Of a stretch of DNA of 64,000 nucleotides, positions 9,663 through 48,979 are shown in pieces. The notes beneath the pieces were generated by a model. That model made no database searches, was not told where the DNA came from, and saw only the letters and a list, made by a program, of their open reading frames with translations. Both the position numbers and the translations under genes were made by a program. Source of the stretch: Kovacikia minuta CCNUW1 (GTDB lineage: Bacteria > Cyanobacteriota > Cyanobacteriia > Leptolyngbyales > Leptolyngbyaceae); NCBI RefSeq assembly GCF_020091585.1, contig NZ_CP083582.1, forward strand, positions 1,116,001 through 1,180,000, in the 5' to 3' direction. The number at the start of each line of letters is the position of its first letter. Within the stretch, counting starts at the first letter, position 1.

Positions 9663-9701
9663 CGCTTGTTTTGTTTGCTCTCTCCGATTGCTCACCAGGA
9701 A

Positions 9702-10634
9702 ATGCAACAACGCATCTATCTACCGTTCGTCGATCGTTCATCTCGTTTATCGATGAACCTCAAACCTCTATCTTTCGAAGATTGGATTGAAATTGATGAA
9801 AATTTTGCATTCTACCTCGATTGTAAAAGACAACTTCTGGAGCAGTGTTATGCAGAAGTTTTTGCAAGTCTACCGGAAACTCAAGTAGCACAAACAGAAG
9901 TGCTAGATCTATTGCTTGAGTATTTACTTGTTCATTTTCCGCAGCATTATTGTCAACGAGGAAATCAGATTGAAAATTTGATAACAAATGAAGTCTGGCG
10001 AATTGAGGATTTTTCAGAAAATCCTTTAGATCTGGCTGGAAGGCTGGTACAGGAAGATTTGTGCTTGCTGCAACTTAAATCCGGTAGATACCAATTAAAT
10101 GCAGCATCCCTGTGCTTCCCAAATCACTGGAGGCTGCACGATAAACTAGGCAAACCCCTGGCTCACATTCACGAGCCTGTACCCGGATACGCAAAAGATT
10201 TGGAGCAACCCGTCGATCACTTGTTCGATCGACTGAAATTTGATCATCCCGTTTACCGACTCAATTGGGGAATTGCAGATACTCCAGAATTATTTAGAGG
10301 TTACGTCCCAGACAAAACACAAAAACCGGACGTTTCAACCCTCACAGTAACCAACGCTGGAGAAAAACTCTGGCTCAGAATCGAACGGCAAACGCTCAGG
10401 AGATTGGAGAAAAGCAGAGATATTTTGTTTATGATTCGGACTTACCTTTATCCACTTGCTATTTTAGAAAATGACCCCATTGCCGCCCGGAATTTAGAGA
10501 AAGCGATTCAGCAGCTTTCCCCTGAAATGCAAGCCTACAAAAACATCCTACCTTTCCGGGAAATTCTGTTAAAGTACCTGGCGATCGCAACCTCTACTCC
10601 TGCGTCATCTTTTGTCCCTAAGGCTTCCTACTGA
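9702..10634 (+). CDS. DUF3445 protein (heme-dependent oxidative N-demethylase-like)
   Basis: About 310 residues matching the DUF3445 family: start region YLPF then LSMNLKPL, and the hallmark CFPNHWRLHDKLGKPLAHIH followed by EPVPGY. Characterised relatives include the heme-containing alpha subunit of an oxidative N-demethylase; the substrate here is unknown. The frame also reaches a TTG at 9666, but the ATG at 9702, with AGGA just before it, fits the usual family start (QRIYLPF). It lies directly downstream of mfd on the same strand. The beta and gamma demethylase subunits are not seen nearby. Confidence 0.8.
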   Translation: MQQRIYLPFVDRSSRLSMNLKPLSFEDWIEIDENFAFYLDCKRQLLEQCYAEVFASLPETQVAQTEVLDLLLEYLLVHFPQHYCQRGNQIENLITNEVWRIEDFSENPLDLAGRLVQEDLCLLQLKSGRYQLNAASLCFPNHWRLHDKLGKPLAHIHEPVPGYAKDLEQPVDHLFDRLKFDHPVYRLNWGIADTPELFRGYVPDKTQKPDVSTLTVTNAGEKLWLRIERQTLRRLEKSRDILFMIRTYLYPLAILENDPIAARNLEKAIQQLSPEMQAYKNILPFREILLKYLAIATSTPASSFVPKASY

Positions 10635-10766: not shown

Positions 10767-11435
10767 CTATTCACTAAGAGAATGTAGTCTTCTTGAGACA
10801 ATACCCTTCAGGATTTTAAGAATTGTTTTTGCTTCTAGCTTTTCACCATACTCCGGAGAAGATTCTAGTATCAAAAGGGGTTTATCGTTATCAATTTGGC
10901 TAACCTCGGCGCGAAAGAAAGTCCAGGTATCTGCAATCGTATAACAACCAAACATTTCTTGAGGAATTAGGCGATCGCTTTCCCAATTGAGTCGAGCAGA
11001 TGCCAAAAGTTGACCATACAGTTGAAACTGAGGATTTTGTGCTTCCAGCCCTCGTTTCGCTTCGACCACAACTAGATAGGGATTTTGGACATATCCTGCA
11101 ATGGAGTTCGCTAATACCCCATCTGCAATTCCTTCAATCTCAAATAGAGAATATTTTGCAGATAACGGAACCTGCGACCAGGCTTGAACTGGATGGTGTT
11201 CTGCTAGTAGTAAGAGTGGATAAATTGCGCGTGCCCAGATTGTTGCTTCATTCAGCAGATGGATCTTGAGATTCACCAACCGGGATTGAATCACCTGAAG
11301 TTGTTGTAGCTCTGACTCTGTTAATTCGATCGTATCAACCCGTAACCAATCATAATCCTGTATGCCCAACTCTTGAATGGTGACAAAGTTCTTCAGTTCT
11401 GCCAGTGAAATCTTGCCAAGGGTAAGTTGAACCAT
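10767..11435 (-). CDS. Predicted PD-(D/E)XK-superfamily nuclease
   Basis: A 222-residue protein. Residues 98-142 carry a nuclease-like signature: an acidic residue in FEIEG, D105 in GIADGVL, the E-x-K motif VVVEAKRG (E125, K127) and QFQLYGQLLA, resembling the N-terminal nuclease lobe of type I restriction subunits. No helicase or specificity domain is attached. AGGA seven bases before the ATG supports the start. It begins 12 bases after the stop of the coiled-coil gene at 11448-12530, so the two are probably co-transcribed. A role in defence or DNA processing is inferred from fold and context only. Confidence 0.6.
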   Translation of the reverse strand: MVQLTLGKISLAELKNFVTIQELGIQDYDWLRVDTIELTESELQQLQVIQSRLVNLKIHLLNEATIWARAIYPLLLLAEHHPVQAWSQVPLSAKYSLFEIEGIADGVLANSIAGYVQNPYLVVVEAKRGLEAQNPQFQLYGQLLASARLNWESDRLIPQEMFGCYTIADTWTFFRAEVSQIDNDKPLLILESSPEYGEKLEAKTILKILKGIVSRRLHSLSE

Positions 11436-11447
11436 ACTGGAATCCTC

Positions 11448-12530
11448 TTATAAAGCAAGCGGTTCAGAAGGAATGATATACATCAAGTTGGAGCCTTCCG
11501 GTTGAGGTTCCGTTGGAGCTAGCTTGAGCCAATCCTGAAAGCTCATCCCAAGTTGGAAAATTGCCTTCACCTCTGTTGCGTAAGCTTCAAACCGATTACA
11601 ATTTTCAATGATCAATTCCATTGTACGCATCTTTTTTAGAAGCTCATCTTTGCTAAGAAGTACCAGGGGTGAATAACCTGATGATAAAATCCTGAGAGCT
11701 TTAATACCAACTGAGTCCTGCATAATGCTCAAATCTCGAGCCAGATTGAATAGATTTTCTCGTTGAGCATTAAATACCGAGTTTTCATCAAATTCTGGAT
11801 TAATCCATTGATAAATTTGAGTCAATCTCCGCAAATTAATTTGGTCTTTGAGTTTGGGCTGTAGATAAACTGCTGGATTTGAGGTTAGCAGTAATTCGAT
11901 AGATTTCCTGGTTTGACAAAGAAGACGATCTACGCCTTCTTGAAAACGGCGCTGTGCTGTATCTAATTCTTCTAGTTCCAGGTAGCAACGGATTTCAGCA
12001 ATGTAAGACAACGATAGAGTTAGGAGATACTCTGCGGCGATTTCACTACCTTGCTCTAGCAATCGATCGGTGTAACTGCTATAAAAATGCTCGGCTTCTA
12101 AAAAGCGATTGATAGCTTGTAATGCACTACTCCTACGGTTTTCGAGATGGCTCATCCTGAAGGCATTAATTGCTAAATCCAGTGCAGCACGAAAATTAGC
12201 ATAGAAACCAAGCTCGATTTTTTCATCAATTTTCTCAACTTGTTTTTGTAATTTTTGTAGGCGTTTTTCTAATTCTCCAAGACGCTGTATGACGAATCCA
12301 AATCCTACGGTTGAGATACCGAGACTCAGTACAGTTTGAGCAGGAAGAATTTGTGAAATCTTCGACAGAGATGCTCCTTGCGGGACAGTTGAACTCAACT
12401 CACGTAGCCAAGCAATAACCTGTTTGCTGGCGACTTCTCGAATCACACCTCCGATCCGTTCAAACTTGCCGCTAGATAGTCCTTCATCAATTTCCGTAGG
12501 AAGTTCAAAGGTTATATTCAGCGGGGGCAT
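11448..12530 (-). CDS. Unknown protein with hydrophobic segment and coiled coil, paired with nuclease
   Basis: A 360-residue protein of no recognised family. Residues about 66-84 (TVLSLGISTVGFGFVIQRL) form a hydrophobic segment that could insert in a membrane. A strong coiled coil follows (LEKRLQKLQKQVEKIDEKIE, about 86-106), then a long helical domain. GGAGA five bases before the ATG supports the start. It is the first gene of a pair with the predicted nuclease 12 bases downstream, a layout seen in two-gene defence modules (sensor or membrane partner plus nuclease). That interpretation is a guess. It may simply be a conserved cyanobacterial hypothetical protein. Confidence 0.55.
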   Translation of the reverse strand: MPPLNITFELPTEIDEGLSSGKFERIGGVIREVASKQVIAWLRELSSTVPQGASLSKISQILPAQTVLSLGISTVGFGFVIQRLGELEKRLQKLQKQVEKIDEKIELGFYANFRAALDLAINAFRMSHLENRRSSALQAINRFLEAEHFYSSYTDRLLEQGSEIAAEYLLTLSLSYIAEIRCYLELEELDTAQRRFQEGVDRLLCQTRKSIELLLTSNPAVYLQPKLKDQINLRRLTQIYQWINPEFDENSVFNAQRENLFNLARDLSIMQDSVGIKALRILSSGYSPLVLLSKDELLKKMRTMELIIENCNRFEAYATEVKAIFQLGMSFQDWLKLAPTEPQPEGSNLMYIIPSEPLAL

Positions 12531-12623
12531 GGGCTTCTCCTAAGGTGTTTCAGCGATCGCAGGTTTCATTTCCACGTCATTTCCTAGTTAACCCACTTCG
12601 ACAATCTGCCCAACACTGAGAGA

Positions 12624-13295
12624 TTACTTGTGCAGTAATTCCTGCTGAATGTAAGTGCGAAGAGATTTGCTGGCTTGCACTTCACTGGTGCGGCATTGTT
12701 CTAGAAATTCATAGAGACGGAACTTGGGCACAACGGCAAAGGTGGGGCTGTTTTCTACCTCAACGTATTTCTGATTTTGAAGCTGATAAATTCGCAAAAC
12801 CTTTCCATTAAAACGCCAGAATTCGGGGACACCAATGCTGGCATAAAAACGATTTTTGTTGATATCGGTATGGGTAATATCGACTTCTACAACAATGTCA
12901 GGGGGCGGATCTGCGGCAAAATTGACCTTCCTGCCTTTGACCTGGGGCTGATTTTGAATGTAGAAGGCTTCATCGGGTTCGGCTCCTTTATCCAGGTCAG
13001 GATAGTCCATTGTGGTTGAACCCATTGTTTTGATCTCAAAACCCAGTTGCTCACCCAATTCTTCAATCAGTGTCCAGATGAAGCGTCCAATCATACGCGA
13101 AAAAAAATCGTGGTCTTCACCCGGCATGGTTATCTCCAACGTTCCCTGGTCATAAATTAAACGGGCACGACGGTTATCTGGGAGGGCTGTGAGAATTTGT
13201 TGGTAAGACTGCCAGGTTAAGCCGTGAATCACCACCCGTTGTTCTCCCTTCAATTCAAGGGTTGGACTGGTGGATTGGGGAGAAGTCGCAACCAT
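12624..13295 (-). CDS. Uma2 family endonuclease-like protein (DUF820)
   Basis: About 223 residues of the Uma2/DUF820 family, very abundant in cyanobacteria, with a PD-(D/E)XK fold. Diagnostic parts are MPGEDHDFFSRMIGRFI, PDLDKGAEPDEAFY and PPDIVVEVDIT, the last carrying the acidic catalytic positions. Its cellular role is unknown; many copies sit near mobile elements. GGAGG five bases before the ATG at 13295 decides the start over an upstream TTG at 13307. Same strand as the nuclease pair downstream, 93 bases away. Confidence 0.85.
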   Translation of the reverse strand: MVATSPQSTSPTLELKGEQRVVIHGLTWQSYQQILTALPDNRRARLIYDQGTLEITMPGEDHDFFSRMIGRFIWTLIEELGEQLGFEIKTMGSTTMDYPDLDKGAEPDEAFYIQNQPQVKGRKVNFAADPPPDIVVEVDITHTDINKNRFYASIGVPEFWRFNGKVLRIYQLQNQKYVEVENSPTFAVVPKFRLYEFLEQCRTSEVQASKSLRTYIQQELLHK

Positions 13296-13706
13296 TGCAG
13301 CCTCCAAAAGCAGAGTTATAGCAGGTGTTAGGTGTCAGGTGTCAGGGAAGAATTAGCCAGAAAGGATTTCACTGACAGATGTCCTAACTCTCATGGTATG
13401 CCTATAGCTTGGGGTAAGAACTGGGACTTTGACCTGGTGTGGATCCAAGCCCTGTTCAGAGATTGTATCAATTGCAAGCAGTTGACTGTTGGTGGCGATG
13501 AATTTGTGATCTTTAGCAGCACTGCCAGATCCCCGACTTTTTGGAAAAGTCGGGGATCTGAAAAGCCGGGGATCTCAGTTGGCTTACTTCAGTATCATGC
13601 AGCGATAAGTGGACAAGGTAACGCATCTGCTAAGAAGCTAACTGGTGAAATTGAAACCCTTTGCCACCAGCAACGGATTTCCCTGACACCTATCACCTGA
13701 CACCTA
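13296..13706. other. Intergenic region with palindromic repeats
   Basis: About 400 bases. A frame of 122 residues crosses it but has no family features and runs through repeats, so it is not called. The notable part is 13527-13576, where AGATCCCCGACTTTT pairs with AAAAGTCGGGGATCT, and a third related arm (AAAGCCGGGGATCT) follows. Both ends carry 7-base-period repeats (GGTGTCAGGTGTCAGG and CACCTATCACCTGACACC). Confidence 0.55.
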
Positions 13707-14432
13707 TCACCTACCACCTGCGATTCCTCCAAACACTGCCAGTTCAAACCATTTGAAGTAGCAGTCTACCTGCTGAAAGCCGATCGCCCGCAGCCATTCG
13801 CATTGCACCTCCACAGGAGCGAGGATATTTGCCTGCTTGTCCTCTCTGTAGACAAAGCGCCTGGCGACCTCCTCCCGTGAGGATGTGCCCCCCTGTTCCT
13901 GGTGCCAGGTATAGAGCGAATCGACCAGCGACTCATTAAATAAATGCTCAACCCAGGGCGAGGTGGACGCCACGTGTTCAATATTCAGGAATCCGCCTCC
14001 CGGTGTCAGCAGGTTGTAAATTTCGCGGTAGAGTTCGCGTTTGCGATCGTCCGGCAGGTGATGGATACAATAGCCCGATAGGATCGCATCAAATGGCTCC
14101 AGACCCGTCTGCCAGTCGGGAGTGTAAAGGTCTGCCTGGATGAATTCAACCCGTTCGGCAAAGGGCTGAAGCCGCTGCTTTGCCCGGTTCAACATGGGTT
14201 CAGAAAAATCGATCGCGTAGACCTGGGCTTCGGGGTAATGGTTCAGCACAACCTGGGCGATCGTGCCATCTCCACAACCTAAATCTGCGACTCGCCGCAG
14301 CGGAGTTCCCGTCTGATCCAGAACTCGCAAGGCGATGTTGATTTGATCCATTGCGTAGGGAATGGCCCCCCGCACACCCGTCAAGAAGTTTTCGACAAGT
14401 GTTTGATTTTGCCATACGGTATCGGTTCTCAT
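13707..14432 (-). CDS. Class I SAM-dependent methyltransferase
   Basis: A 241-residue protein with the SAM-binding glycine loop VADLGCGDGTIAQV, the acidic strand-2 end (VYAIDFSEPML) and motif ILSGYCIHHLPD. It looks like a small-molecule methyltransferase of the Methyltransf_25 type; the substrate is unknown. It starts 11 bases after the stop of a ribbon-helix-helix-like gene and is probably co-transcribed with it. Its stop lies in repeat DNA. Confidence 0.85.
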   Translation of the reverse strand: MRTDTVWQNQTLVENFLTGVRGAIPYAMDQINIALRVLDQTGTPLRRVADLGCGDGTIAQVVLNHYPEAQVYAIDFSEPMLNRAKQRLQPFAERVEFIQADLYTPDWQTGLEPFDAILSGYCIHHLPDDRKRELYREIYNLLTPGGGFLNIEHVASTSPWVEHLFNESLVDSLYTWHQEQGGTSSREEVARRFVYREDKQANILAPVEVQCEWLRAIGFQQVDCYFKWFELAVFGGIAGGR

Positions 14433-14443
14433 GTCAGGTATCC

Positions 14444-14776
14444 CTATTTCAAGCTGTCTGGACTGAGGGGAACCATGACTCCTGTGATTGTTAGCCCCAA
14501 TAACATGGGTTCATCGGGTCGAATCAGCTTGCCGGTTAAGGCGCAGTGTTCTTCCTGTTGGGCGGTGGCGGCGATCGTGGCGCGTATTTCGTTCTGCGAA
14601 ACCTGGGGCGTAAAGTCTCCCGACTTTTGCCGCACATAGTTCCACAGAATATCTCGAATAAGTGCCTGATAGCCCTGACTACCCGATAAATCTTTGAGCC
14701 GCTCCTTGAGTTCCCGCTCCAGGCGAATGCTGGTCACTTCCATTTCGGTGGTTGAGGTGCGGGTTAGTGTATGCAT
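14444..14776 (-). CDS. Ribbon-helix-helix-like small protein, likely DNA-binding
   Basis: About 110 residues. The N-terminal half (EVTSIRLERELKERLKDLSG) fits a ribbon-helix-helix fold: a short strand then two helices. The C-terminal half has no known family. The start at 14776 is chosen because GGAGGA lies five bases upstream; a longer frame to 14851 has an unlikely N-terminus. Two tandem copies of an 11-base motif (14815-14834) sit 39-58 bases upstream of the start, where an autoregulatory operator would be, and RHH proteins of the Arc/MetJ type bind tandem sites. The first gene of a pair with the methyltransferase. Confidence 0.65.
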   Translation of the reverse strand: MHTLTRTSTTEMEVTSIRLERELKERLKDLSGSQGYQALIRDILWNYVRQKSGDFTPQVSQNEIRATIAATAQQEEHCALTGKLIRPDEPMLLGLTITGVMVPLSPDSLK

Positions 14777-15174
14777 GGTGTTCCTCCGTAAAATAGAAAA
14801 AAGGTAGACAGAGTTGTAATACAAGTGTAGTATGTAGATCGAATTATTCAAGTAATTTTTTGATTTCTTTTGTCATGAAACCTCTTCGGTTCCCCTCCAC
14901 CCGGTTCGCTGGCAACGGCTACTCCGGAATGTCTGACATCGCGTTGGTAGAACACTGAGCGCCAGATATTCGCCACACAACCGCGATCGGAGTAAAAAAA
15001 TGCCGACTGATCGAAAAGAAAAAGCTTAGCAAGACCGTTCTCAGTTCAATCTCAGTTCAATCTCAGTTCAAAAATTCTGTCCGTCCCAATCCCGTTTCTC
15101 AATTAGGAGGAGCGGGGACGTTTTTGTCGCTATCCCGATAATCACCTGGAATTAAAACAGGAGAAACCAGGATC
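14777..15174. other. Divergent intergenic region with triple 11-mer and hairpin
   Basis: No gene recognised. It holds the promoter side of the minus-strand RHH gene, three perfect tandem copies of TCTCAGTTCAA (15039-15071), and CGTCCC (15082-15087) facing GGGACG (15115-15120) followed by TTTTT. The last could be a leader terminator about 50 bases before the gene at 15175. AGGA precedes that gene's ATG. Confidence 0.45.
14815..14834. promoter_or_regulatory. Tandem 11-base operator-like site A
   Basis: TGTAATACAAG is followed directly by TGTAGTATG. The same arrangement (TGTAGTATTAG then TGTAGTACG) occurs at 15636-15655. The consensus is two copies of TGTARTAnnAG. Its position upstream of the RHH gene suggests autoregulation; binding is not shown. 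Confidence 0.4.
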
Positions 15175-48621: not shown

Positions 48622-48979
48622 CTTTCACATCAGAGATGAGCCTATTCTCTACAGAGATGATGGGCAAAACCATCGTCGATCCACGGTACTGATCAGGGGT
48701 GTCCTTCTGAGTACTCGGCATAAACACGGAAGATTTTTAGTGAATCGACTGATTTTGTTCAACTTTTCTTAAGCAGATAAACCTCCGAATCCCCGGAAGC
48801 CCCTAGAACGCCGGTACAGAAACCGGGTTTCTGCTGTGAGATGCTCAATTTTCGCTGAATATCCTCACCAGAAACCCGGTTTCTCGAAATACTGTACCGA
48901 TGCTCTAGCCGATTCCTGCATTCCGCGTGAAAATGGGGGAAATACTCTTTGAAGTTTCACCTAAACGAGAGGAAGTCCC
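48622..48979. other. Gap with long inverted repeat
   Basis: Between divergent sigF and the Bax-inhibitor-like gene. CGGTACAG (48811-48818) and CTGTACCG (48892-48899) enclose two copies of AGAAACC.GGTTTCT-type palindromes (AGAAACCGGGTTTCT at 48818-48832, AGAAACCCGGTTTCT near 48869). No gene seen. Confidence 0.6.

Follow-up and report, generated by a model that had tools for sequence, protein, structure and literature searches.

In the 64,000-nucleotide stretch of Kovacikia minuta CCNUW1 DNA analysed here (hereafter the window; C1:1116001-1180000 in a genome of 8.56 Mb and three contigs), three genes in a row raise the question of whether they work together and how they came to stand where they do. 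They encode a Uma2-family nuclease, a JukB-family protein (P2) and a putative PD-(D/E)xK-type nuclease (P1). The first-pass annotation, made from the letters alone, had read P2 and P1 as a pair in a defence island. Our results point to another origin: the block would be the displaced content of a split dnaE gap, the nucleases of such gaps are likely homing endonucleases, and P2 would be a passenger. We give this reading a probability of about 0.7. At least Uma2-P2 appears to be displaced dnaE-gap cargo, and P1 may be a later addition. Numbered genomes (G) and DNA stretches (L) carry our survey labels, where f denotes a family and g a genus.

The two dnaE halves of this genome lie outside the window and about 4 Mb from each other (C1:7181410 and, for dnaE-C, C1:3097083), and both are open. 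When the end of the own dnaE-N, which includes the N-terminal part of the intein (intein-N), was compared with the window, one strong match was found at 13512-13417 (76% over 96 nucleotides, E=1.8e-14). Translated, it is 63% identical over 35 amino acids (E=3.7e-9). Its score of 70.7 bits compares with a best score of 31.0 in 100 shuffled windows, the shuffling being done in blocks of two bases and not as a strict dinucleotide shuffle. This relic lies about 120 bases from the ATG of Uma2, in the order and orientation observed in dnaE gaps. Among 129 other P1, P2 and Uma2 loci (a number in which some places are represented by two fetches), intein matches were seen only at the loci that are at dnaE. 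The presence of the relic suggests how the block came to its present location.

Both dnaE halves were located in 144 relatives. They are on one contig within 7 kb in 16 of these, and G433, whose layout was deduced from a P2 remnant common to two contig ends, brings the number to 17. The C-terminal part of the intein (intein-C) is present in 104 of 386 genomes of the phylum; the DNA upstream of it was read for 60, five of which have dnaE-N nearby, one of them with an unsplit intein. The rest of the 104 comprise six genomes already read with the 144 relatives, 13 with the halves apart or on different contigs and 25 of family f28 that were left unread. Because seven of the 60 stretches are cut short at contig ends (L256, L266, L271, L273, L288, L293 and L301) and the f28 genomes were unread, adjacency of the dnaE halves may be undercounted. 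The stretch L255 was set aside. L261 (G206) may offer a contrast with these split loci: its dnaE intein is unsplit and reads through in a single frame.

Altogether 21 loci with adjacent split dnaE halves were read, and 15 of the 21 gaps contain a nuclease-type open reading frame (ORF): Uma2 in nine (G012, G032, G033, G050 with two copies, G057, G433, G449, G466 and G474), P1 in two (G260 and G469) and a LAGLIDADG protein in four (G039, G091, G379 and G397). The gene types of the window are therefore all found between split-intein dnaE halves, with Uma2-P2 in the order of the window in G012, P1 in G260, and Uma2 with a P2 remnant in G032 and G433. In Pfam the four LAGLIDADG proteins score 38-44 bits against a cut-off of 22.5, and the gap Uma2 of G033, G057, G449 and G466 were confirmed. 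The other Uma2 and P1 calls were made by similarity to the window Uma2 or P1, and that of G474 by its likeness to G466 as judged by eye. All nuclease ORFs are co-directional with dnaE, as are 25 of the 28 gap ORFs of at least 60 amino acids (20 loci, G433 left out), and in 14 of the 15 nuclease gaps the first ORF starts between -25 and +33 nucleotides from the dnaE-N stop. Some loci are close kin (G466/G474; G032/G433; G091/G379/G397 of genus g49), so the events are fewer than the loci. Given the LAGLIDADG cases, homing is the natural reading of the gap nucleases, and by analogy it may extend to the gap Uma2 and P1. A further arrangement was seen in L234 (Filamentous cyanobacterium CCP2), in which P2 and a D12-class N6-adenine DNA methyltransferase lie between the intein halves; this locus is outside the 21 since it was found through the P2 search.

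Phylogenetic comparisons agree with a gap origin for Uma2. The window Uma2 gave 159 matches in 17 genomes (1 to 18 per genome), which had been picked for their dnaE loci and not for the Uma2 copies within them. Outside the own genome, dnaE-gap copies take the first six places (77, 72, 65, 64, 65 and 63%), the non-gap copy G008:C327 is seventh (63%), and the next copy of the own genome follows at 42%. In a maximum-likelihood tree of 20 rows, in which two G008 rows were trimmed and only some of the non-gap copies were used, the window Uma2 groups with the gap copies of G012 and G032 and with a G008 copy that follows dnaE-N (support 100/99). The gap label requires 2 changes on this tree compared to a mean of 6.3 for shuffled labels, and none of 500 shuffles was as low. 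Similarly, in the P2 tree (24 rows, without two short remnants) the window P2 is sister to a G010 P2 that stands after dnaE-N (98/97).

P1 is, on profile evidence, a probable orphan member of the PD-(D/E)xK-type nucleases. Its family conserves NEATxW, D105, E125-x-K127, QLY and FGCYTIAD; D105 and E125 are present in all 15 aligned rows and K127 in 14 (T in G042). The PADLOC PD_DExK model matches the window P1 (E=2e-8) and all nine aligned members. No Pfam family was found for the three P1 proteins scanned, NCBIfam gave no match and PHROGs nothing credible for P1 or P2, and no relative of P1 was detected among PDB sequences by single sequence or by profile. The single-sequence AlphaFold model of P1 has a predicted local distance difference test score (pLDDT) of 34.9, and the fold is not confirmed by it. 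In two other P1 loci (L142 and L143, from G103 and G278) P1 is found with another Uma2 upstream, and the gene ahead of P1 there, judged by eye, is presumably similar to Rubisco accumulation factor 1.

P2 is assigned to the JukB family because family profile, paralogue link and fold agree. The PADLOC JukB model (PDLC04114) is matched by 48 of the 49 aligned P2 members, at best with E=1.9e-13; the match of the window P2 is modest (E=7.9e-5) and confined to residues 12-117. A 406-residue paralogue from the same genome matches JukB at 9.5e-22 and aligns with the P2 profile in hhalign over 313 columns (98.5%, E=1.8e-15). The AlphaFold model of P2 calculated with 49 sequences has a pLDDT of 84.9 and a predicted template-modelling score of 0.84, and of the solved structures compared with it JukB 9jht ranks first (probability 0.99 in Foldseek, E=0.011, template-modelling score 0.28). 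VIA-align superposes P2 and JukB 9jht with Z 11.4 over 177 residues and a root-mean-square deviation of 3.5. The many other VIA-align matches to helical-repeat proteins (Z about 9-11) were tied in score, and no function was read from them. Nothing credible was found when the single P2 sequence was searched against the PDB. According to a review (PMC13282480), JukA recruits JukB to the early phage vesicle, where JukB assembles into tetrameric pores. P2 is thus a plausible pore-forming defence effector, and by analogy it might perforate membranes as JukB does. No JukA-named model was matched at E<=1 in five neighbouring ORFs, in a library whose inclusion of such a model is not confirmed.

Several observations concern JukB-like genes elsewhere. 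The closest JukB-like paralogue of the own genome (L319:4498-5715) adjoins a type I restriction enzyme fragment (L319:6009-7526). In L321, L322, L323 and L324 (G192, G411, G149 and G237), a large dynamin-like GTPase and a small ORF that varies between loci precede JukB-like proteins of 420-462 amino acids. The GTPases of L321-L323 match PADLOC LeoA at about 1e-10, Pfam Dynamin_N was found in L321 and L323, and the one of L324 was recognized by eye; this recurring operon could be a membrane-acting defence system. Genes read by eye as chlN, DUF5331 and chlL are present in 11 of 29 fetched P2 neighbourhoods (L106-L134), with toxin-antitoxin-like genes around. In L114, L123, L124, L125 and others P2 is convergent to chlN (by eye), often with toxin-antitoxin-like genes, as though the chl locus also attracted such genes.

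Several results weigh against a displaced dnaE gap. A nuclease-type gene is absent from six of the 21 gaps (G051, G055, G252, G009, G001 and G445). No credible intein-C match was detected in the window and none on the P1 side, so that a single old gap flank is seen; nor were relics of P1, P2 or Uma2 found at E<=1 beside the own dnaE halves. Uma2 genes occur in large numbers and at scattered places. In their tree a branch that separates the gap copies from all other rows appears in just 4% of the bootstrap trees, the non-gap rows were selected by us, and two of them, on very long branches, are unsure in their placement. The gap copies of P2 do not form one group (4 changes, no better than with shuffled labels). 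The JukB assignment is affected too, as the Foldseek match is weak by itself, the VIA-align Z of 11.4 is tied with those of unrelated helical proteins, and a search of PDB sequences with the 49-member P2 profile did not return JukB. Finally, in the P1 tree, calculated without the partial matches of G037, G009:C74 and G033 and without any of the weak matches, the window P1 is sister to a gene that lies away from dnaE, the P1 of G008 (82%, 100/99), and the gap P1 genes of G260 and G469 fall into a clade of their own. This position suggests that P1 may have joined separately or later; P1 as part of an ancestral gap block was considered, and the tree gives it no support.

The reading from which this work started, in which P2 and P1 (with or without Uma2) make up a new two- or three-gene defence system with membrane protein and nuclease acting together, is drawn from their common strand, their 12-base spacing (11436-11447), the JukB likeness of P2 and the nuclease likeness of P1. 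We now regard it as very improbable, and the pair itself is refuted by its distribution, on the condition that the first-pass annotation had named for its own refutation (the genes seldom adjoining in other genomes). Taking about 50% identity or more, or more than 300 bits to the profile, as a clear P1 relative and 200 bits or more as a clear P2 relative, we found P1 in 12 genomes besides the own and P2 in 26, with no genome in common. The P1 relatives are those of G003, G008, G009, G031, G034, G037 (two pieces) and G042 among 58 genomes, of G103, G260, G278 and G411 among the 386 genomes of the phylum, and of G469 from a gap; G469 and G449 were outside the genome-wide P1 and P2 search. The P2 relatives are those of G010, G012, G017, G041, G049, G051 and G053 among the 58 and of 19 further genomes of the 386, where some copies are broken; for each of these 386 genomes the best 5 candidates were scored for P2 and the best 7 for P1. 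In the fetched flanks of 80 named P2 loci (mostly cyanobacterial, some of Anaerolineae type and one KSB1 record) no P1 was matched at E<=1e-5. P1 stands without P2 beside unrelated genes in the P1 loci read, and no conserved neighbour was found in the P2 loci read. Only distant similarities bring the two into one genome: P2-like proteins below 50 bits in the P1-bearing G411 and G042, and P1-like matches below 41 bits, of about 80-130 amino acids, in some P2-bearing genomes (e.g. G074, G119, G216 and G383). The latter never adjoin P2; they lie hundreds of kilobases off or on another contig.

A stronger competitor, whose chances we place somewhat short of even, is that dispersed accessory genes simply settle in the dnaE gap as a place that tolerates them, that homing plays no part, and that the block was carried off by chance. 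It is consistent with the large and dispersed Uma2 family, with the gathering of P2 and toxin-antitoxin-like genes near chlN, and with the other gap contents: MazE-like (Pfam) and PIN-like (by eye) genes, DUF2513, a D12-class methyltransferase and, judged by eye, large ORFs of kinase-like and other kinds. Yet about nine detected Uma2 genes per genome, among presumably several thousand genes, predict far fewer than nine Uma2 gaps in 21; kinship among the loci reduces the independent events. The frequency of nuclease-type genes in the gaps, their co-directionality in the 14 tabulated cases, the narrow range of first starts behind dnaE-N and the four LAGLIDADG proteins, which belong to a classical homing family and exceed the Pfam cut-off, likewise argue for more than chance settlement. 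A third possibility is that P2 serves cyanobacteria and Chloroflexota as a stand-alone defence effector of JukB type whose sensor is encoded elsewhere, and that its association with dnaE is incidental. This is compatible with a displaced gap, and we consider the chances even. The JukB profile in nearly all aligned members, the solved-fold match, the paralogue beside a type I restriction fragment and the wide spread of P2 without a conserved neighbour speak for it, whereas the failure to recognize JukA nearby and the limited JukB match of the window protein speak against it.

The displaced dnaE gap remains our preferred reading, and the course of events would be as follows. Uma2 and P2 would once have been flanked by dnaE-N/intein-N and intein-C/dnaE-C, either in the ancestors of this strain or in an organism from which the segment was acquired. 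The gap segment, with the last 35 or so codons of intein-N attached, would then have come to lie beside mfd through rearrangement or transfer, and the intein piece would have degraded while the nuclease-type and JukB-like genes remained open. P1, the last gene of the block and another gene type that enters such gaps, may have been added either ahead of the move or later. Where the block originated, the nucleases most likely served as free-standing homing endonucleases of the split intein: dnaE alleles lacking the intein would be cut, and their repair would carry over both intein halves together with the gap. P2 would have ridden along; most likely it is an effector that perforates membranes in the manner of JukB, either by itself or together with a sensor encoded elsewhere. 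The dN/dS ratio (nonsynonymous to synonymous substitutions) is 0.071 for P1 compared to G008 (dS 1.52) and 0.107 for Uma2 compared to G032 (dS 1.84), both near saturation; dS was not computable for the window P2 versus G010 nor for the window Uma2 versus G012. These low ratios suggest that P1 and Uma2 are kept, or keep themselves, without the intein.

How the DnaE intein became split, and whether it was ever mobile by homing, is an old question. A broader proposal, which we make tentatively and hold to be rather doubtful, is that in several lineages the split DnaE intein still spreads by homing, or did so until recently, and that its gap recruits interchangeable free-standing LAGLIDADG, Uma2 or P1 nucleases and sometimes a JukB-like effector or a DNA methylase. 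The window would be a fossil in which the cargo outlived the intein. If so, an essential gene held defence-like cargo anchored between its two parts, and a portion of the Uma2 family, which is common in cyanobacteria and little understood, would gain a natural role. With adjacent halves, open and replaceable nuclease genes and a decaying relic, the homing question is open to direct cutting assays. Independently, the JukB family is extended to genes without a recognized partner in cyanobacteria and Anaerolineae-type bacteria. By title and abstract, no paper was found that ties Uma2 to the dnaE gap, which is weak evidence of novelty as most subscription papers lay outside the collection searched. 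Uma2 expansions and split inteins are reported separately in the consulted part of one study (PMC9403480).

The immediate surroundings of the block (Table 1) bear on the remaining claims of the first-pass annotation, which is partly supported overall. Its description of the genes was accurate: the ORF list agrees on a nuclease ORF 12 bases after P2 on the same strand, ribosome sites are visible by eye (TAGGAG ahead of the P2 start, GAGG ahead of that of P1), and the hydrophobic segment of P2 is seen at residues 66-82 or so by eye, with a helix at 77-98 in the model. The EAK motif of P1 is contained in VVVEAKRG, where E125 and K127 lie, and agrees with the PD_DExK profile. Uma2 does lie just upstream of P2, at a distance of 93 bases, and exceeds the Pfam cut-off (71 bits versus 27). 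The profile search that had been suggested for both proteins led P1 to PD-(D/E)xK and P2 to JukB, a defence family, the JukA partner being unrecognized. The methyltransferase was rightly placed 0.4 kb beyond Uma2; its best family is Methyltransf_25, which is not a DNA-methylase family. The ribbon-helix-helix regulator proposed next to it was not recovered, the small ORF giving sub-cut-off matches only (BrnA 13.1 bits versus 26.1, VapB 15.5 versus 60). On the other side the block is flanked by the haem-dependent N-demethylase and by mfd (named by its ORF). Such neighbours do not make a defence island. Elsewhere in the window, at 48802-48893, a dispersed repeat of about 92 nucleotides is 89% identical to one directly downstream of the own dnaE-N and could mediate rearrangement.

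Table 1. Features of the Uma2-P2-P1 block and of its flanks, in window coordinates.
Feature	Position	Strand	Description
P1	10767..11435	-	ORF of 222 amino acids, ATG start; probable orphan PD-(D/E)xK-type nuclease family protein
P2	11448..12530	-	ORF of 360 amino acids, ATG start; JukB-family, with beta-rich N-terminus, hydrophobic/coiled-coil helix and helical body
Uma2 (PF05685) nuclease-family gene	12624..13295	-	Internal ATG at 13295; ORF from TTG at 13307
Relic of the 3' end of dnaE-N/intein-N	13416..13520	-	Orientation of Uma2; just upstream of Uma2
Palindromic repeat	13526..13560	.	Abuts the broken end of the relic; similar stretch in L146
Haem-dependent oxidative N-demethylase alpha-like gene (PF11927)	9666..10634	+	Flanking, outside the block
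Class I S-adenosylmethionine-dependent methyltransferase, small-molecule type	13707..14432	-	Flanking, outside the block
Small ORF upstream of the methyltransferase	14444..14851		Regulator family not placed

Compared with the Juk system, P2 shares with JukB an N-terminal region related at the profile level, including a GGVIR-type motif, the hydrophobic helix and the coiled coil; JukB is its first solved-structure match, and long paralogues link the families. It differs in that JukA is unrecognized beside it, its helical body falls outside the profile match and its neighbours are not conserved. P1 resembles the CRISPR-associated accessory nuclease model PD_DExK of PADLOC (PDLC01472), matched by all nine aligned members, and differs in the lack of a Pfam family for the three proteins scanned. 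The window Uma2 fits its family of putative restriction endonucleases by its Pfam score and stands apart by grouping with dnaE-gap copies. The split DnaE intein of cyanobacteria is known as the Ssp/Npu DnaE type; the relic corresponds to the C-terminal end of its intein-N, and open halves are present elsewhere in the genome, whereas the window copy is truncated and degraded. The closest parallel is with the fractured genes reportedly described by Dassa et al. in 2009, in which split inteins carry a free-standing endonuclease gene in the gap. Like these, the dnaE gaps consist of split-intein host halves with a small co-directional endonuclease gene between them. In contrast, the host is here cyanobacterial dnaE, the gap nucleases include Uma2 and P1 besides LAGLIDADG proteins, and the window block lies away from the host gene with its intein-N side kept as a degraded relic only and its intein-C side not found. 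Free-standing endonucleases are already familiar from the gaps of split inteins; Uma2 and P1 at cyanobacterial dnaE, and an apparently displaced block that still carries its intein relic, did not turn up in the literature searched and are what is added here.

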